64,000 nt of DNA from assembly GCA_018658105.1 (NCBI GenBank), contig JABHVW010000004.1, positions 124,001 to 188,000 on the forward strand, read 5' to 3'. The stretch is from Candidatus Peregrinibacteria bacterium. Its GTDB lineage: Bacteria; Patescibacteriota; Gracilibacteria; UBA1369; 2-02-FULL-48-14. The notes under the pieces are model-generated. The model saw only the letters and a list, made by a program, of their open reading frames with translations. It searched no databases and was not told the DNA's origin. Positions 3,143 through 37,847 of the stretch are shown here, piece by piece. The stretch's first letter is position 1, and each line of letters begins with the position of its first letter. Both the position numbers and the translations under genes were made by a program.

Positions 3143-4183
3143 ATGGACGATAAACTTAAAAAACTTGAGTCAGCAGCGCTAAAAGCTTTGAAAGAAGCTT
3201 CTTCACCTGACGAGCTAAAAAACCTAGAAAAAAAGTTTCTGGGCAAAAGTGGTGAAATCACAGGCATACTTAAAGGTCTCGCCTCTCTTTCTATTGAAGA
3301 GAAAAAAAGTATTGGTAAAGCGGCTAACGATCTCAAAAAGACGCTTGCTGCAAAATTCAAAAACTGCTGCAATAAAATCGAAATGGAACACCTGAACAAA
3401 ACCCTAGAAAGTGATGAAATCGACCTTAGCGCTCCTGGTAGAAAACATCACATTGGGCATATTCACCCAATCGCCCAAACTCAAGAAGAAGTTGAACGAA
3501 TTTTCGGACAAATGGGCTTCACAGTAATCGATGGCCCCGAAGTTGAAAGCGAATATTACAATTTTGAAGGGCTAAACATTCCTGCGCATCACCCTGCGCG
3601 CGACATGCAAGACACATTTTTTATAGACAAAGCCGCAGACAAAAAAGAAGGTCGCCTGGTTTTAAGAACGCACACTTCTCCAAACCAAGTTCGCACAATG
3701 GAAAAATACGGAGCACCACTCCGCATTATTGTTCCTGGCCGCACCTTCCGTAACGAAGCAACCGACGCATCACACGAGCACACTTTCGACCAAGTCGAAG
3801 GCCTAATGATCGACGAAAATATTTCAATCAGTCACTTAAAAGGTGTTATGCAAGAATTCTTAAGCCGACTTTTCGACAAAGAAATGAAAGTAAGGTTCAG
3901 ACCCGGCTACTTCCCTTTTGTGGAGCCAGGAATCGAACTAGATATGTCTTGTATTTTCTGCGAAAGCAAAGGCTGCAAAGTTTGTAAAAAAACTGGCTGG
4001 ATCGAATTTATGGGCTGCGGAATGGTTCACCCCAACGTACTCAAAGCCGGTGGTATCGACTCAGAAAAATATCAAGGATGGGCATTTGGCTTCGGCCTCA
4101 CCCGCCTTGTAATGATGCGCTACGGCATCAACGACATTCGTCATTTAACAGGTGGCGACTTAAGAATTTTAAATCAATTTTAA
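3143..4183 (+). CDS. pheS: Phenylalanine-tRNA ligase alpha subunit
   Basis: Catalytic alpha subunit (346 aa) of the alpha2-beta2 phenylalanyl-tRNA synthetase. A coiled-coil arm (about residues 1-90) is followed by the class II core: motif 2 appears as GRTFRNEATDASHEHTFDQ and motif 3 near the C-terminus as GWAFGFGLTRLVMMRYGI. A CxxCx4CxxC cluster (CIFCESKGCKVC) precedes WIEFMGCGMVHP, as in Bacillus-type PheS. The ATG at 3143 was preferred over an upstream in-frame GTG because that GTG lies inside the HU terminator. The stop overlaps the pheT ATG (TAATG), implying translational coupling. Confidence 0.96.
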   Translation: MDDKLKKLESAALKALKEASSPDELKNLEKKFLGKSGEITGILKGLASLSIEEKKSIGKAANDLKKTLAAKFKNCCNKIEMEHLNKTLESDEIDLSAPGRKHHIGHIHPIAQTQEEVERIFGQMGFTVIDGPEVESEYYNFEGLNIPAHHPARDMQDTFFIDKAADKKEGRLVLRTHTSPNQVRTMEKYGAPLRIIVPGRTFRNEATDASHEHTFDQVEGLMIDENISISHLKGVMQEFLSRLFDKEMKVRFRPGYFPFVEPGIELDMSCIFCESKGCKVCKKTGWIEFMGCGMVHPNVLKAGGIDSEKYQGWAFGFGLTRLVMMRYGINDIRHLTGGDLRILNQF

Positions 4184-6615
4184 TGTACATCTCCCTAGAC
4201 TGGCTCTCAGATTTCACCAAATTACCTAAGCTAACGGCTCAGGAAATTGGCGAAAAAATCACTTTGCACACCGCTGAAGTAGAAGGTGTCGAAGATCTCG
4301 AAAGCAAATATGCCAACATGGTGATTGGACGAATTGTAGAATTGAAAAAACACCCAGACGCAGACAGGCTAAACCTCACAATGGTAGACATTGGCGAATC
4401 TAAACCTGTTCAAATAGTATGTGGAGGTCAAAATCTGCAAGTAGACATGCTGGTGCCAATTGGGCTGCCAGGTGCAAAAGTAGACGTGCACGGCTCAGGT
4501 GATATTTTTGAACTCGCTAAAGTAAAAATTCGCGGCGCAGAAAGCCACGGCATGATTTGTGCAGGCGAAGAAATTTGGATGGAACCAGATAACGAACCGA
4601 ACAGTAAAAAAGATGTGAAGATTAAAGATCTTTCACACTTAAATGAAAAGCCCGGAACACCTCTTGCAAAAGCGCTCGGGAAATCCGGCTCAATTATTGA
4701 TATAGACAACAAATCGCTCACCCACCGCCCAGACTTATGGAATCACTACGGCTTCGCTCGTGAGTGCTCAACAATTTTCAAACAAGAGCTAAAGCCATAC
4801 GAGCCAAAAGCAGCAAAACCAGATTCGACAGAAGCAAAACCAAAAGCAACAATCAAAGACGACAAAGTTTGTCCTCAATTTTCAATGGCTATTATGACTG
4901 GCATCGAAATTGCAGAATCTCCACAGTGGATGAAATCTCGCCTCGAAGCCGCTGGAATGAACCCGCACAACAACATTGTCGACATCACTAATTATGTAAT
5001 GCTCGAACTCGGACAGCCTATGCATGCCTACGACCGCAAAGTTGTCGGCTCAGACGAACTAATAATTCGCACGGCAAAAGATGGTGAAATTCTCGTAACC
5101 CTAGACGAAAGCGAATACAAACTAAATAAAGAAGATCCGATAGTATGTGACAAAAAAAATGAGCCTCTTGGAATTGCCGGAATTAAAGGTGGATTAAAAT
5201 CTGGAATTACAGATGAAACCACAGAAATTATTGTTGAAGCAGCAAACTGGGATCCAATTATTGTTCGCAAATGCAGCACCAGAATTGGCCTAAGAACAGA
5301 TGCCTCACAGCGTTTCGAAAAAGGCCTCGACCCAAGCATGACAGAAACTGCAGTTAATCGAGCGATCGAACTAATAAAAGAACTTTCACCAAACGCAAAA
5401 CTAATTAGCAAAGTTGAAACATTCGGAAAATGGAAGCCAGGCAAAAAAACTATCAAAGTTAGCCCAGAAAAAATCTGCAAAAAAATCGGTGTAGAAATAA
5501 GTGAAAAAGAAATGACTCGCATATTAAAATCTCTCGAGTTCGGCGTGAAAAAATCTGGCAAACAACTAGAAGTTGATGTGCCCTCACATCGAGCAACCGG
5601 AGATGTAGACATCCCCGACGACATCGTTGAAGAAATCGCAAGAATTCATGGCTACGACCAAGTGCCAGCTCTTGTGCCAAGCTTCCCTATCAATTTGCCT
5701 GTAAAAAATGAGGAGCGTTTTCATAAACACGACGCCCGCAGAATTTTGGCGCACAACCTAGGTTTCACCGAAGATTTCAATTACTCATTTTACGGTGAAG
5801 ACAGGCTTGAAGCCTGTGGCCTCGACGAAACAAAACACCTGAAAATTCTAAATTATCTTTCCGAAGATCAAACTCACATGCGAACCAGCATGACTCCAAA
5901 TTTACTTGCAAGCATCGCAAAAAATGCTCGTGAATTCGAACACATTAAACTATTTGAAATCGGCCGAACATATGAAGAAAATGGCGCATACATGCCAGAT
6001 GAAAAGAAAGTTCTCGCCGCTGCAATTAGTAGCAAAAGCAAAGACGAAATCTTTTACGAAATCAAAGGTGCATTAGAAGCATTTTTACAAAACTTCCAAA
6101 CCGGAAACTACAAATTAGTGCCATCGAAAGATGCCCCATCATATGCTCATCCAAAAAAATGCATGACCATATTGTCCCGCGGCAAGCAAATCGGCCACGT
6201 TTTCGCAGTTCACCCTGGAGTGCTCAAGCACTTCGACATTGCCCATCAAGTTGGAATGTTCGAACTACACTTCAACGCTCTTGTTGAGCACGGCCGCAAC
6301 ACAGTGAAATTCGAGGAACCGTCAAAATTCCCTGCAATGAACCTAGATGTATCCGTATTAATGGAAGAAGAAAAAACTGTCGCAGCAATTGAAAGTGCAA
6401 TTCGAAAAACAGATAAAGAAAAATCAATCCAAAACATTGAGCTCTTCGACATATATAGAGGAAAGGAAATCCCCGAAAATCAAAAAGCTATGGCCTTCAC
6501 AATTCAGTTAAGACACAAAGATCGAACCCTAACAGATAAAGAATTTCAAGAAACTCAAGAGGCGATCTTCCTTGCACTTGAGAAATTAGGTGGTAAAATC
6601 CGTGGGAGAAACTAA
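4183..6615 (+). CDS. pheT: Phenylalanine-tRNA ligase beta subunit
   Basis: Beta subunit (810 aa) of PheRS. The domain order is standard: an N-terminal segment MYISLDWLSDFTKLP, an EMAP-like tRNA-binding OB fold (about 40-150, with KKHPDADRLNLTMVDIG), the B3/B4 editing domain that hydrolyses mischarged Tyr-tRNA, the B5 domain, the catalytic-like core (DIVEEIARIHGYDQVP) and a C-terminal FDX-ACB domain (from about 715; KFPAMNLDVSVLMEEE) that binds the tRNA anticodon. The start is the ATG inside the pheS stop (TAATG at 4181-4185). Longer in-frame extensions would run deep into pheS and lack homologous sequence. The PBP gene follows after 14 nt. Confidence 0.96.
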   Translation: MYISLDWLSDFTKLPKLTAQEIGEKITLHTAEVEGVEDLESKYANMVIGRIVELKKHPDADRLNLTMVDIGESKPVQIVCGGQNLQVDMLVPIGLPGAKVDVHGSGDIFELAKVKIRGAESHGMICAGEEIWMEPDNEPNSKKDVKIKDLSHLNEKPGTPLAKALGKSGSIIDIDNKSLTHRPDLWNHYGFARECSTIFKQELKPYEPKAAKPDSTEAKPKATIKDDKVCPQFSMAIMTGIEIAESPQWMKSRLEAAGMNPHNNIVDITNYVMLELGQPMHAYDRKVVGSDELIIRTAKDGEILVTLDESEYKLNKEDPIVCDKKNEPLGIAGIKGGLKSGITDETTEIIVEAANWDPIIVRKCSTRIGLRTDASQRFEKGLDPSMTETAVNRAIELIKELSPNAKLISKVETFGKWKPGKKTIKVSPEKICKKIGVEISEKEMTRILKSLEFGVKKSGKQLEVDVPSHRATGDVDIPDDIVEEIARIHGYDQVPALVPSFPINLPVKNEERFHKHDARRILAHNLGFTEDFNYSFYGEDRLEACGLDETKHLKILNYLSEDQTHMRTSMTPNLLASIAKNAREFEHIKLFEIGRTYEENGAYMPDEKKVLAAAISSKSKDEIFYEIKGALEAFLQNFQTGNYKLVPSKDAPSYAHPKKCMTILSRGKQIGHVFAVHPGVLKHFDIAHQVGMFELHFNALVEHGRNTVKFEEPSKFPAMNLDVSVLMEEEKTVAAIESAIRKTDKEKSIQNIELFDIYRGKEIPENQKAMAFTIQLRHKDRTLTDKEFQETQEAIFLALEKLGGKIRGRN

Positions 6616-6629
6616 CCTTAACAACAGAT

Positions 6630-9413
6630 ATGAAAAATTGGACTAAAAAGAAGATCTCTAAGGCTTGGCGTAAACTAAAACCAAAGCCGCACATGTCCAA
6701 AAAGAAAAAGGCCTTTTTGCACCTATTAAGGTTAGCAATCACGGGAGCCCTAGTGCTTACAGCCTGCATGTTTATTTATGTAGTCTACCTTCTTTTCACT
6801 TTGCCAAATCCTTCAGAACTTCGCGACTTAAATCTCACAGAATCAACACTCATTATGGATCGCGAAGGAAACCTTCTTTACGCAATTCACGGTGAAGAAA
6901 ACCGAAAAGCCCTAGACGACATTCAAGACATATCCCCTTGGTTAATTGACGCAACCGTCGCAATCGAAGATGACAAATTCTACAAACACATTGGTATCGA
7001 CCTCCCGGGTCTTTTTAAAGCCTTCCTTTCAGAAATCGGCATCGGCTCACCTCGTGGCGGATCAACAATCACACAGCAGTTTGTAAAAAACACATTCCTA
7101 AGCTCAGAAAGAACCTACACTCGTAAACTTCAAGAAATCGTTCTCTCTTTGAGCGTTGAACTTCGATTCAACAAAGAAGAAATCATGCTCATGTACCTAA
7201 ACGCAATTCCATACGGAAGCAATGCATACGGTATTGAACTTGCTGCAGAGCGCTACTTCGAAAAAGAAGCTTCCGAGTTAACTCTCAGCGAATCGGCAAT
7301 TTTGGCTTCAATCCCAAAAGCCCCAACTCGCTACTCTCCATACGGGAATTACAGATACACAACTCTACATTTCGACCTTAATGAAGAAACTCTTGGCGAC
7401 AGAAAAATCACAGGAGAAGGCGATTTAGAATACGAAGAGTGGACACGTGGTTTGATTGGAAAAGAGTTCACCATGCCAGATGGCAGCACCTTCTACATTA
7501 AAGGCCGCAGCGAGCTAGTACTAGACAGAATGGAAGAGCTCAAACTCATTTCTAGCGCACAAAAAGAAGAAGCGGTAAGTGAAGTGAAAGAAATCGCATT
7601 CACACCATATATTGAAACAATTAAAGCACCACACTTTGTACTTTGGGTTAAACAAATGCTCGAAGAAAAATACGGTGTTGCTGTAGTTGAACAAGGTGGA
7701 TTGAAAGTATACACAACGATTGACCCCGACTATCAAAAAGCTTCTGAAGATGCAATTCATGAAAGATGGCAACACAATGTAGACAACTACAATGCAGACA
7801 ACGCAGCGATGGTATCTATCCACCCTCAAACAGGACAAATCCTCTCAATGGTAGGTTCCTCAAGTTATTACGACACAGAAGACATTCAAGTTGTAGACGG
7901 CCAAGTAAACATGATCACGAGCACAAGACAGCCAGGCTCATCATTTAAACCTTTCGTTTACGCCCTTGCCTTCCTAAACCAATATTCACCAGCAACTGTA
8001 CTTTACGACGTTGCAACAGACTTCGGATACAACTACAAACCAGCCAATTACGATGGCCAGTTTATGGGGCCATTAAGTATGCGTCGCGCACTCGCACAAT
8101 CACGAAATATCCCAGCGGTTAAAGCATATTTCTTAGCTGGACTAGAAGAAGCCCTCGTGCCTTTCGTAAAAGAATTCGGAATGGAGTCTGTACGTGAAGA
8201 GGCGAATTACGGGTCATCAATGGCTCTGGGAACCGCAGACATCACAGCTCTCGAGCTAGCCGAAGCCTACACAGTATTCGCAAATGGCGGCTACAAAGTT
8301 GAGCCAACTCCAATCTTAAAAATTGAAAATGCAAACGGTGAAGTTCTCGAACAATGGGAGGAACGAAACGTAATTAAAGACAATGTATTAGATGAACAAG
8401 TTGCATTCTTAATAAACGACATTCTTTCAGACCCAAGTGTTGGCCTAGGCCCAAGCGTAAGAATAGACAGCCTAGACAACGCCGCAAAAACCGGAACCTC
8501 CACAAACCCCGACGGCAAAGCCACAAACGCATGGCTCGCTGCATACACCCCAAACCTTGTAACAATTACTTGGGCGGGTAACGCACGAAACAATGCCATG
8601 AGCGCAAGCGCTGGTGGATACAACACCGCAGCTCCAATTTGGAAGAGCTTTATGACAAATATTCTAGATCGCATTGAGCCAACTAACTGGAAACGCCCAG
8701 AAGAAATTGTAGAAAAAGCAGTTAGCACAGCCAGTGGCCAAATCCCTTCAGACAGCACTCCATCTGACATGATTGCAACCGAAGTTTTTGCCAGTTTTGC
8801 AGTACCGACTGGCCTAGATAATTCATTTGTAACTTTAATGATCGAGACAATTACAAACAGGCTCGCTACCGAACATTCCCCTGCCGACGCAGTTGAAGAA
8901 AAAAGCTTCCGCATACACGTTTCAGTTCTCGCCGATGTTTGGACAAAGTGGCAAGATGCAATAAATATTTGGGCTGAAGAAAACGATGAGGGGCAACCAC
9001 CAACTGAAGACGCAAGTAGCATTCACAATGAACGCAATGCCAGCCGACTTCCTGAAATCGCAATTGTAGACCCTTTGAGCCTTACTTCTTACGACAAAGA
9101 CACAAAGCTAATCGACGTAGAAATCGAGATTCTCGAACAAGGTAATGGGGTAAATCATGTGAAATTCCTACTTGATGGCGATCAACAATTCGAAGCGAAA
9201 AACTCACCATTCACAGGGAAAATTCGCATACCAACTAGCGCTCAAGATGGCGACATCCTAGAAATCGAAGCTAAAGGTGTAGACGTTTACGGATACTCAT
9301 CAAGCAGCAAAATCCAGATTCGAATTGGCGAAGCTAAAAGCAAAAAAGACCCAGAGCCAGAACCAGAGATAGATGAACCCGAAGATGCTGTACTAGAAGA
9401 CGACGAAAGCTAA
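6630..9413 (+). CDS. Class A penicillin-binding protein (bifunctional glycosyltransferase/transpeptidase)
   Basis: A 927-aa membrane-anchored peptidoglycan synthase. A basic cytoplasmic tail (1-29) precedes one membrane segment (about 30-57). The GT51 domain has the catalytic glutamate E113 in VAIEDDKFYKHIG and the GGSTITQQFVKN motif (143-154). The transpeptidase has SxxK with nucleophile S437 (PGSSFKP), an SRN motif (SRNIPAVK) and KTGTS at 620-624. After the transpeptidase comes an unassigned region, then a beta-rich module (about 810-900, ending SSSKIQIRIG) resembling bacterial Ig-like folds, and a very acidic tail (DPEPEPEIDEPED). It is probably co-transcribed with pheST. Its stop overlaps the convergent methyltransferase gene by 4 nt. 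Confidence 0.95.
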   Translation: MKNWTKKKISKAWRKLKPKPHMSKKKKAFLHLLRLAITGALVLTACMFIYVVYLLFTLPNPSELRDLNLTESTLIMDREGNLLYAIHGEENRKALDDIQDISPWLIDATVAIEDDKFYKHIGIDLPGLFKAFLSEIGIGSPRGGSTITQQFVKNTFLSSERTYTRKLQEIVLSLSVELRFNKEEIMLMYLNAIPYGSNAYGIELAAERYFEKEASELTLSESAILASIPKAPTRYSPYGNYRYTTLHFDLNEETLGDRKITGEGDLEYEEWTRGLIGKEFTMPDGSTFYIKGRSELVLDRMEELKLISSAQKEEAVSEVKEIAFTPYIETIKAPHFVLWVKQMLEEKYGVAVVEQGGLKVYTTIDPDYQKASEDAIHERWQHNVDNYNADNAAMVSIHPQTGQILSMVGSSSYYDTEDIQVVDGQVNMITSTRQPGSSFKPFVYALAFLNQYSPATVLYDVATDFGYNYKPANYDGQFMGPLSMRRALAQSRNIPAVKAYFLAGLEEALVPFVKEFGMESVREEANYGSSMALGTADITALELAEAYTVFANGGYKVEPTPILKIENANGEVLEQWEERNVIKDNVLDEQVAFLINDILSDPSVGLGPSVRIDSLDNAAKTGTSTNPDGKATNAWLAAYTPNLVTITWAGNARNNAMSASAGGYNTAAPIWKSFMTNILDRIEPTNWKRPEEIVEKAVSTASGQIPSDSTPSDMIATEVFASFAVPTGLDNSFVTLMIETITNRLATEHSPADAVEEKSFRIHVSVLADVWTKWQDAINIWAEENDEGQPPTEDASSIHNERNASRLPEIAIVDPLSLTSYDKDTKLIDVEIEILEQGNGVNHVKFLLDGDQQFEAKNSPFTGKIRIPTSAQDGDILEIEAKGVDVYGYSSSSKIQIRIGEAKSKKDPEPEPEIDEPEDAVLEDDES

Positions 9414-32866: not shown

Positions 32867-33849
32867 GCCGCCGCCCGCCTAAGGCCTAATGTCTCGTGCC
32901 AATGCGCAGTAACCGGCTTCACAAGCCTTTCCATATCCTCTGCATTGTCAGCAAGGCAGTCTGTGTGCCGAGATTCAACCACCCAAAGTCCACCCTTCCC
33001 GCGCTTACTCTTCACCCAAAATCCATGCTCATTTTTAGATTTGGCACCTTTATGCCATCTGTTATGCTCCGGTCTATATTTATGCAACCAATTTTTCATT
33101 GCCTGTACTGAGTGAGTAATACGACCTGGAATCGAATGCGCCAGCATCCATTTTTGCATATCTATAACCGTCTCAAAATGCGGAGGCATGAAAGCTTCCT
33201 CCGGTGTAAAGCCCGCAGCTTGAAAACGCTTCGCTTTCACCGTTGGCAATAGTGCCCACAAATGCTCTTCCCTGGTCATATCCATATGACTTTTCATATC
33301 TGTATTCATTCCATGAAATTTGGCACGCACCTCTGCCGTATAAGAGTTCATCAACTGTAACATAATTTCAAGGGCCTGCTCATCACTCGCCCCCTCAAAC
33401 ATTCTCGAATCATTCACTTGCAAAACCGCAATTGCTGTTGAATACAAAAGGCCAGGATTCGTGCGCCCCCAGTCTTTTATCAGAGCATGAGATCTATGAT
33501 CCGGATCCGTACTCGCCGCCATAAATTCAAAAGACTTCTGCACCACAGGCTGAAACACATATCGCAAACCACGTGGCTCCAAAATCTCATTCACCATGCC
33601 ATGCAAATCCATAACTTCAGCCACAGCAGCATCTTCATCTTTATGGACGCCGGTTTTCACCTCCAAATGGATTGAAGCCTCTTCGCCATCCACATTGTCC
33701 ATCTCAGTTTTATATTTCCTCTTCACCTCATTCATCACCCACTCCACAGCAGGCAAACCATCGATTTCCTCGACAGCTTCCTGCGAGTCGACTTTCAAAA
33801 TGAATCCTTCAGCCTCAATCCCGACTCCATATTTTCTTTCTAAAACCAT
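32863..33849 (-). CDS. GCS2-like carboxylate-amine ligase (glutamate-cysteine ligase superfamily)
   Basis: 328 aa. The N-terminal GVGIEAEGFILKVD and EASIHLEVKTGVHKDEDAAV resemble the nucleotide/metal-binding strands of GCS2/YbdK-type ligases, which form gamma-glutamyl or similar amide bonds with ATP. A later segment (STAIAVLQVNDSRMFEG) sits where the family has its 'H-h-H' substrate strand, but with Val/Gln in place of His. The C-terminal part is basic and aromatic (NWLHKYRPEHNRWHKGAKS). I infer an ATP-dependent ligase of this fold; the substrate is unknown and other assignments are possible. Expression appears to be controlled by the phenylalanine-codon attenuator upstream. Confidence 0.45.
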   Translation of the reverse strand: MVLERKYGVGIEAEGFILKVDSQEAVEEIDGLPAVEWVMNEVKRKYKTEMDNVDGEEASIHLEVKTGVHKDEDAAVAEVMDLHGMVNEILEPRGLRYVFQPVVQKSFEFMAASTDPDHRSHALIKDWGRTNPGLLYSTAIAVLQVNDSRMFEGASDEQALEIMLQLMNSYTAEVRAKFHGMNTDMKSHMDMTREEHLWALLPTVKAKRFQAAGFTPEEAFMPPHFETVIDMQKWMLAHSIPGRITHSVQAMKNWLHKYRPEHNRWHKGAKSKNEHGFWVKSKRGKGGLWVVESRHTDCLADNAEDMERLVKPVTAHWHETLGLRRAAA

Positions 33850-33868
33850 GTTAATTCAAATTAAAAAA

Positions 33869-33889
33869 CTCGCTGTGTATATCAGCGAG
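33869..33889 (-). terminator. Attenuator terminator upstream of the GCS2-like gene
   Basis: On the minus strand, CTCGCTG (33883-33889) and CAGCGAG (33869-33875) form a perfect 7-bp stem with a 7-nt loop, followed at once by six T's. It is an intrinsic terminator located between the leader peptide and the ATG at 33849, so it must be bypassed for the gene to be expressed. Confidence 0.8.
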
Positions 33890-33926
33890 GAGGTGTAAAA
33901 GTAGACATTCAGCACCTAGCCCCGCT
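33884..33926 (-). promoter_or_regulatory. Antiterminator pairing of the attenuator
   Basis: The RNA segment AGCGGGG (33926 down to 33920, the last sense codons of the leader peptide) can pair with CCUCGCU (33890 down to 33884): seven pairs including one G-U. The second segment is the 5' arm of the terminator, so the two structures exclude each other. Confidence 0.65.
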
Positions 33927-33975
33927 TGGCAGCGAAGAAGAAAAATTCAGTGTTAAAAAAGAATGTCTGTTTCAT
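33916..33975 (-). CDS. Phe-rich leader peptide of a transcription attenuator
   Basis: A 19-residue reading frame, MKQTFFFNTEFFFFAAKRG, ending in TAG (33916-33918). Seven of 19 codons are Phe (codons 5-7 and 11-14). Shortage of charged tRNA-Phe should stall the ribosome upstream of the segment AGCGGGG (codons 17-19), leaving it free to form the antiterminator; normal translation to the stop would mask it and let the terminator fold. The composition and layout parallel pheL and the pheST leader of enteric bacteria. A promoter places the transcript start one base before the ATG. The regulated gene is not an obvious Phe-metabolism gene. Confidence 0.75.
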   Translation of the reverse strand: MKQTFFFNTEFFFFAAKRG

Positions 33976-33982
33976 TGGCTCG

Positions 33983-34011
33983 ATCCTACCTCCACATTTT
34001 GATTTGGTCAA
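33983..34011 (-). promoter_or_regulatory. Promoter of the attenuated GCS2-like operon
   Basis: Minus strand TTGACC (34006-34011), 17-bp spacer, TAGGAT (33983-33988). Predicted +1 is 33976, one nucleotide upstream of the leader-peptide ATG. Confidence 0.7.
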
Positions 34012-34015
34012 GCCC

Positions 34016-34043
34016 TTTACAAAGCTCAGCAATGTGCAATAAT
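34016..34043 (+). promoter_or_regulatory. Promoter of the 34064 gene
   Basis: TTTACA (34016-34021), 16-bp spacer, extended -10 TGCAATAAT (AATAAT 34038-34043). Predicted +1 34050, leader 14 nt. It diverges from the attenuator promoter. Confidence 0.6.
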
Positions 34044-34063: not shown

Positions 34064-34756
34064 ATGGAAGCTTCTCAACACGGACTTGAAATCGATGAAT
34101 TTAACCTGGTCAACGAGATAATTCGGATCTGCGACAACCTTGCTCCCGATATCGACAAAGCTTCTTTATCAGAGAAAGCAGATGAAATTATAACAGCAGA
34201 TCCAAGCATAGGCAGCAGACCTGACCTAATAGGCAAGTTGCAAAGAATGATAGACCAAGTTCGAGTATCAGTAAGGGCGGCTGTAGAGGCGGCCAACTCT
34301 GCCCTAAAAGCAATTGACCCCGCAGCTCCACCAAAAGAAGGGTTTTTAGGCACCATTCACTCAGAAAGAAGCGAATCATTAGGCGTAACAAGAAATGAAG
34401 ACGGTCTTAGGGTTGGACGTTATGTAAAGCACGGAATATCCAGTAACTTTGCTGGAATAAAATTAACCTATATTTCTCCAGAAGTTCAGCGATGGGACCT
34501 AGGTGGCGTCGAAACAATTGCCCCACGAGCATTTCTTCAAGAAGAGGAGTTCCTTGTAGGGGGTGTCATAGTCATAGAAGGTGAGGCAGAAAAACTCATG
34601 CCATTTCTTGAGTGGAAGGTCACAGTTTTCCATTACAATCGCACGGATTTTTCTCATTCAAGAAGAGGGCATTCTGTCAGTGCAACTCTTGAGGGCATTG
34701 TATTTGAAGCCGAAGTCATCAACTCAGTCAGCGCCCCAGATGAATCTTCCTCATAA
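34064..34756 (+). CDS. Hypothetical protein
   Basis: 230 aa, not recognised. Residues 1-95 are helical and acidic (LVNEIIRICDNLAPDIDKAS), residues 105-225 mostly beta with alternating hydrophobics (GRYVKHGISSNFAGIKLTYI, FLVGGVIVIEGEAEKLMPF, SVSATLEGIVFEAEVINSV), suggesting a helical N-domain plus a beta-sandwich or barrel. There is no signal peptide or membrane segment. It ends in a Ser-rich tail and overlaps the convergent flippase gene by 29 nt. It has its own promoter, divergent from the attenuator. Confidence 0.6.
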   Translation: MEASQHGLEIDEFNLVNEIIRICDNLAPDIDKASLSEKADEIITADPSIGSRPDLIGKLQRMIDQVRVSVRAAVEAANSALKAIDPAAPPKEGFLGTIHSERSESLGVTRNEDGLRVGRYVKHGISSNFAGIKLTYISPEVQRWDLGGVETIAPRAFLQEEEFLVGGVIVIEGEAEKLMPFLEWKVTVFHYNRTDFSHSRRGHSVSATLEGIVFEAEVINSVSAPDESSS

Positions 34757-36854: not shown

Positions 36855-37847
36855 TTAATACTTCCTCACCCTTCCCCTCTCAATCTCCCACTGGCCAATT
36901 TTCTTTGAGCCACCACGCAAAACCCCCTCTTCCCGATATTTATCAATCGCCTTCCGCGTTTTCTTAGTCTGCTCCACAAAATAATGGGCCAGCTTTTTCT
37001 TACGACCATCACGCGCCTGCCCAATCGCATTGCAATAAGACTTATGATTTCCAGTGAAAAATATTACCGGCATATATCCCGACTGCAGTAAAAACGCATT
37101 CAAAAGCAAGCGCCCTACACGTCCATTTCCATCTGCAAATGGGTGAATCTTCTCAAATCGATAATGAAACTCAAGCGCTATCTGCGGAGCATACATCTTC
37201 CGCCGATTTTCGTTGAACCACTTCATCAGCGCAGAAAGCTCAGGCCTCACATTCTCCCACAAAGTCGTTTCTTGATTGCTCACCACATTGTTCTCCAATT
37301 TGAACTTCCCCGCATTTACATCTAGCCCATCAAACAAAAGCTCATGCACCCGTTTGACCGATTTCATATTCCATTTCATTTCTCGTGAAAACGAAAAATT
37401 CAGCGCCTTAAAAGAGTTCGCCGCCTCAATTTCCAGAGGAGTACGTGGCTTTTTCTTCCCCGTCACATAGCCCTCCAAATGATCCTTCGTCAAGCGCGAG
37501 CCCTCCGACTGATTCGAATTCAGCAAAAAAAGCACAGCAAAAAGATCCCGAAACTGCTTAAGCTCCTTTTCAAAAAGTTCATGATGCATCGATTTATACC
37601 AGAAATGAGATTTCTCAATATCCACAGTTTTCTTCGGCAAGAAATACTTTTTCACATTCGCATGCAAATTCGCATTGTAGATCAGCCCAATGTCATTGAA
37701 ATAAACAGGAATTTTCTCCTGAATATCCTTAGGAATCTCCTTCCCCAAATACTTATCAAACAAAGCCACTCTCTTCCCCACTCTCAGCATAAACTGAAAA
37801 TGATAATAGCCCTGCCCTTTAATAATTTTCTTGCGTATGTACTGCAT
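36855..37847 (-). CDS. Fic-domain protein (probable AMPylase)
   Basis: 330 aa. The Fic catalytic motif is exact: HPFADGNGRVGRLLLNAF (canonical HPFxxGNGRxxR). Upstream, NSNQSEGSRLT matches the inhibitory-helix motif (S/T)xxxE(G/N) with its glutamate, so this is a self-inhibited class II-type Fic protein. The N-terminal ~100 residues include basic strands and a helical region. Fic enzymes transfer AMP or other nucleotide parts to target hydroxyls; the target is unknown. It lies next to the toxin-antitoxin pair but has its own extended -10 (TGCTAGACT) immediately before the ATG, so it is not simply part of that operon. Confidence 0.88.
   Translation of the reverse strand: MQYIRKKIIKGQGYYHFQFMLRVGKRVALFDKYLGKEIPKDIQEKIPVYFNDIGLIYNANLHANVKKYFLPKKTVDIEKSHFWYKSMHHELFEKELKQFRDLFAVLFLLNSNQSEGSRLTKDHLEGYVTGKKKPRTPLEIEAANSFKALNFSFSREMKWNMKSVKRVHELLFDGLDVNAGKFKLENNVVSNQETTLWENVRPELSALMKWFNENRRKMYAPQIALEFHYRFEKIHPFADGNGRVGRLLLNAFLLQSGYMPVIFFTGNHKSYCNAIGQARDGRKKKLAHYFVEQTKKTRKAIDKYREEGVLRGGSKKIGQWEIERGRVRKY

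Follow-up and report, generated by a model that had tools for sequence, protein, structure and literature searches.

The GCS2-like ligase gene on the minus strand of the window is most probably controlled by a classical ribosome-mediated transcription attenuator, which is predicted to respond to charged aromatic tRNA (Phe-tRNA in this case). The window is a 64,000-nucleotide stretch of the genome of an uncultured Candidatus Peregrinibacteria bacterium. We give this reading a probability of about 0.9. RNA and translation data are lacking. What has been demonstrated, by sequence and comparison, is the set of parts, its conservation at five homologous genes (mostly in different letters) and the switch as computed. 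An attenuator of the classic ribosome-mediated type was claimed in the original prediction, and the deciding evidence in support of it is recurrence at homologous genes.

In the proposed mechanism, RNA polymerase would begin at or just 5' of the leader AUG, and a ribosome would load on the leader. When Phe-tRNA is plentiful, the ribosome would reach the UAG and cover AGCGGGG; the CUCGCUG/CAGCGAG terminator could then form, and transcription would end before the gene. When Phe-tRNA is scarce, the ribosome is expected to stall on UUU-UUC-UUC-UUC, leaving AGCGGGG exposed. The exposed strand would pair with the newly made 5' arm of the terminator; with the terminator blocked, the ligase gene would be transcribed. 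The position of the promoter, translation of the leader and the response to starvation in vivo are inferences. The features of the locus are listed in Table 1.

Table 1. Features of the putative attenuator and the gene it precedes (window coordinates)
Feature	Position	Strand	Remark
Promoter-like TTGACC-17-TAGGAT	33983..34011	-	putative sigma-70-type
Leader ORF MKQTFFFNTEFFFFAAKRG, 19 aa, seven Phe codons	33916..33975	-	ATG 33975 to TAG 33916
Main control codons TTT TTC TTC TTC (Phe 11-14)	33934..33945	-	from ribosome-position folding
Antiterminator strand AGCGGGG (region 2)	33920..33926	-	overlaps the leader's last sense codons
Terminator hairpin CTCGCTG-7-CAGCGAG	33869..33889	-	5' arm 33889-33883
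CCTCGCT (region 3), strand common to terminator 5' arm and antiterminator	33884..33890	-	
Terminator U-tract TTTTTT	33863..33868	-	
GCS2/YbdK-like gene, 328 aa	32863..33849	-	ATG 33849, end 32863; putative carboxylate-amine ligase family

The individual parts were predicted largely as they are found. The promoter-like site is present with 9 of 12 consensus matches; shuffled sequence has 0.6 of them per 500 bp. The transcription start is inferred to lie at the leader ATG or 1-2 nt 5' of it (~33976). The Phe-rich 19-residue frame also exists as claimed and begins at its first ATG; a comparably aromatic ATG ORF occurs in 0.7% of shuffles. The claimed pairing of AGCGGGG with the 5' arm of the terminator is a 7-bp duplex of -11.8 kcal/mol, equalled in 0.95% of shuffles. 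The hairpin and six T's ahead of the gene stand, with a minor correction to the position of the stem's own 5' arm (see Table 1). Folding of the 128-nt leader, proposed as a check, is stronger than in 200 of 200 shuffles (z = -2.96). The minimum-energy form contains the terminator and a hairpin in which CUUCGCU masks AGCGGGG, a region 1:2-like element. The attenuator region is single-copy in the genome. A divergent 230-aa ORF adjoins it (34064-34756, plus strand); this has its own promoter-like site at 34016-34043 and no Pfam or NCBIfam match.

Such parts could in principle have come together by chance: a short ORF and an intrinsic terminator of the ordinary kind, neither related to the other nor tied to it by any regulation. 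AT-rich intergenic DNA does produce Phe-rich ORFs and short hairpins at random. Against this, the same leader anatomy is found at four further homologous genes with protein identities of 32-39%. A comparison with relatives had been proposed as a check, with the lack of both Phe codons and alternative stems as refutation; instead, the aromatic-rich leader, terminator and antiterminator are all retained despite differing stem letters. One of the four, L003, is an unlinked paralogue in the same genome (32% identity), with the Tyr-rich leader MNLFSAAYQYYSYLM. The others are in three other genomes: L004 has the leader MNKHGSQNFGFFFFAYFKHRVEA; L005 has the mixed Phe/Tyr leader MQNSNIQKIAQFYFYFFKQMVE ahead of two tandem GCS2-like genes; L006 has MRAQDFFIIHWWCKLHIWKGHFCW. 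An aromatic leader ORF is present at all five loci (aromatic-cluster shuffle P 0.0005-0.18); taken alone, those of L003 and L006 are not significantly aromatic (P 0.05 and 0.18). The leaders and starts of the relatives were chosen after reading the upstream sequence, which introduces some selection into the P values of the individual loci; the control codon of L006 (W12) was set by judgement.

Every locus has a terminator with a T-rich tail, 19-44 nt 5' of the gene ATG (-8.8 to -24.8 kcal/mol), and an antiterminator segment which begins 3-14 nt past the last control codon. Pairing of that segment with the terminator 5' arm ranges from -11.1 to -19.0 kcal/mol across the five, and is matched by 0.25-2.25% of dinucleotide shuffles per locus. 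The stem letters vary between loci; L004 and L005, from the same family, have GGTTGAG in common. A covariance model was left out because the arms have no common letters. A 5 x 5 matrix that pairs every antiterminator arm with every terminator arm ranks the native combination strongest in four of five columns, the exception being L004/L005; the two arms have thus changed together. The gene upstream is divergent in three cases: the window, L003 and L006. The terminator at these three loci can therefore serve the GCS2-like gene only and has no other owner, which speaks against chance assembly.

A scan that did not use homology also bears on chance. It covered the regions upstream of 504 ORFs in 444 kb, about 40% of the 1.12-Mb source genome (97% complete), and required three things together: an ATG leader carrying an amino-acid cluster, a terminator, and pairing of the leader with the terminator. 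It was designed once the pattern was already known. Twelve loci were returned; the window gene ranks first (P 0.020) and its unlinked paralogue second (P 0.027), and the next has P 0.19. When the pairing test is dropped in a looser filter, about two dozen further matches appear, which speaks for chance. With the rank of both paralogues and the recurrence in different letters, chance assembly is very unlikely. The aro-operon region (L026) and the window pheS were within the attenuator scans and are not among the candidates. A second possible aromatic leader, VSFYFFHFWTALKKYF, precedes a 273-aa ORF at L028 (11605-12426, plus strand), with a GTG start and a weak hairpin resembling a terminator; it was outside the pairing test because its start codon is not ATG.

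Of 353 genomes in the class, six contain homologues of the gene; one homologue genome, of the same order, is recorded as Candidatus Peregrinibacteria UBA1369, and another homologue as Candidatus Abawacabacteria. The gene is absent from the five same-family genomes G001-G005, no homologue beyond the source genome is seen in a 380-genome sample of the phylum, and none was found in viral contigs, plasmids or phages.

The switch was computed by folding each leader RNA only as far as the terminator loop, with the 3' arm not yet made and the ribosome-covered part removed. At all five loci, a ribosome on the aromatic cluster or short of it lets the antiterminator form, and one that has moved beyond the cluster does not. 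Once the ribosome has reached the stop codon, four of the five loci leave the terminator 5' arm largely unpaired for footprints of 10-16 nt; residual 5'-arm pairing in L003 reaches 0.38, and the arm in L006 is still half-paired with other sequence. Computed in this way, the switch is ON under starvation, when the ribosome stalls on aromatic codons, and OFF once it is at the stop codon. Full-length equilibrium folding was rejected as a poor test in favour of folding to the terminator loop. The switch is visible at equilibrium in the window, L003 and L006, but the terminator wins at all ribosome positions in L004 and L005; the switch at those two loci must therefore be kinetic.

The original prediction put phenylalanine forward as a possible signal. 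Attenuation stands, but Phe alone does not: the leaders point to aromatic amino acids in general (Phe, Tyr and Trp), a refinement made without RNA or cell data. The leaders from other genomes carry the clusters FGFFFFAYF, FYFYFF and FF..WW, and YQYYSY is also found among the peptides. The same leaders connect the gene to aromatic amino acids after all, contrary to the view that the target has no obvious link to Phe. A leader of this geometry might instead sense a general slowdown of translation, or arrest of the nascent peptide as in antibiotic-type systems, rather than the charging of aromatic tRNA. Any stall within the cluster would trigger it, and the gene is, by inference, not obviously biosynthetic. 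The peptides differ, however (FFFF, YQYYSY, FYFYFF, WW), and are alike only in having aromatics just 5' of the antiterminator. This points to codon-specific stalling rather than a single arrest peptide, and makes the slowdown or arrest reading improbable, though not as remote as chance.

A trans-acting regulator (a small molecule, protein or tRNA, in the manner of a T-box or riboswitch) could also bind the hairpins, the ORF being incidental. Distant relatives of the gene do adjoin TrpR-family regulator genes. However, an Rfam search with the window region and five related loci gave no match at a meaningful score, and the leaders are short and have no conserved aptamer letters. The antiterminator strand also lies just past the control codons at all five loci, which speaks against such a regulator. 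Of the readings considered, this is the least credible, and ribosome-mediated attenuation is preferred.

Leader translation would have to begin without a conventional ribosome binding site. In 444 kb of the source genome (the window plus L020-L038), the positions of TATAAT-like hexamers relative to the ATG show a peak at -15 to -12, and hardly any Shine-Dalgarno-like tetramers occur at -18 to -10. It is therefore likely that leaderless initiation is widespread in this genome. The -10 element of the window begins 13 nt before the leader ATG, within the genome-wide peak, and so fits the leaderless pattern. L004 and L005 have similar promoters with 17-nt spacing and -10 elements at -14 and -12; L006 has a promoter-like TTGCCT-17-TATGAT at -34. 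The start sites are inferred.

Leader-peptide attenuators for Phe (pheA/pheL, pheST/pheM) and Trp (trpL) are well known in Proteobacteria. The window attenuator resembles them in having a short ORF with consecutive control codons, an antiterminator just 3' of these codons, an intrinsic terminator before the gene, and predicted expression under starvation. It differs in its target, which is a GCS2-like ligase and not a biosynthetic enzyme or aminoacyl-tRNA synthetase, and in its host, a member of the candidate phyla radiation (CPR). Leaders of the window type also have no Shine-Dalgarno sequence, no conserved stem letters and no Rfam match. Phenylalanine attenuators and pheST are mentioned in an earlier comparative study, which reports classical attenuators of trp, trpS and leuS in Actinobacteria and found none for Phe or Tyr in that phylum (PMC1262725). 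The actinobacterial systems share the leader peptide, terminator and antiterminator and were found through the same comparative logic; the window differs from them in phylum, amino acids and target. As of 2010, leader-peptide attenuation was said to be known only in Proteobacteria and Actinobacteria; Firmicutes were then added, with histidine leader peptides at hisZ and hisS* of bacilli (PMC2965389). These are likewise leader-peptide attenuators outside the first two phyla, but they respond to His, control genes related to aminoacyl-tRNA synthetases and belong to Firmicutes. A literature search found no report of leader-peptide attenuation from Patescibacteria or the candidate phyla radiation. 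The mechanism is thus classical; what is new is its place, in the candidate phyla radiation, and the type of target.

The gene was described as GCS2-like; profile matches point to this, and the predicted fold of a homologue agrees. PF04107 (GCS2) is found at E <= 1 in five of the seven family members, with a best value of 3.1e-5, and TIGR02050 weakly in six of the seven; the window protein alone has no significant Pfam match under default settings. Its structure model is poor (pLDDT 65), and the L004 homologue was modelled instead (pLDDT 88). The best PDB matches of that model are 1tt4, 1r8g and GshA, at E about 1e-5; it also matches glutamine synthetases. The model supports a glutamate-cysteine-ligase fold, of the glutamine-synthetase superfamily, for the homologue. 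The predicted fold and the motifs E.E, LE and E.R.D, which align with YbdK, are shared with the YbdK/GCS2 family (PF04107, TIGR02050; PDB 1R8G, 1TT4). The window-type proteins differ in having only about 12-14% identity to that family, in being shorter, in their LQVNDS motif, and in that the gene is often followed by a class-I amidotransferase.

The amidotransferase is the next gene in L004, L005 and L006 (by Pfam in the first two, by homology in the third). Those of L004 and L005 also match Peptidase_C26 weakly, and the L005 neighbourhood additionally contains Asparaginase_2. In two genomes which read TGA as Gly, distant relatives adjoin TrpR-family genes (PF01371) and an AstE/AspA or M20 hydrolase. 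Such distant GCS2-like genes lie beside a TrpR-family gene and a hydrolase at L064 (G090) and at L063 (G035; 3418-7037); in G035 the TrpR-family gene sits between two GCS2-like ORFs, a different regulator near related genes. A Fic-domain gene (Pfam match) is divergent from the L003 paralogue (L003 2704-3579), and a second gene, in the window at 36855-37847, is Fic-like by eye (HPFADGNGRVGR).

The source genome has a shikimate gene cluster in L026, as read from its ORFs, with chorismate synthase confirmed by profile. Chorismate synthase is not detectable in four other genomes (G303, G305, G231, G090); the target is therefore probably not de novo biosynthesis. The leaders, the amidotransferase partners and the TrpR-family neighbours of distant relatives together suggest an ATP-dependent carboxylate-amine ligase that would salvage or store aromatics through amide or gamma-glutamyl metabolism. 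This activity is inferred, with low confidence. The occurrence of separate Phe-leader and Tyr-leader paralogues here, against two tandem genes under the mixed leader of L005, suggests paralogue specificity. A broader proposal is speculative and more doubtful than not: that the GCS2-like genes and amidotransferases form an unrecognised aromatic-amino-acid pathway in Gracilibacteria/Peregrinibacteria. It would be a starvation-induced amide or gamma-glutamyl salvage, with paralogues matched to the amino acid of their leader (Phe, Tyr, Phe+Tyr or Trp) and attenuation working without Shine-Dalgarno initiation.

The leaders act as a built-in label. Through them, the role of an enzyme family without an assigned substrate gains a testable clue: aromatic amino acids. 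They also suggest that bacteria with small genomes, three of them without detectable chorismate synthase, sense their supply of aromatic amino acids.
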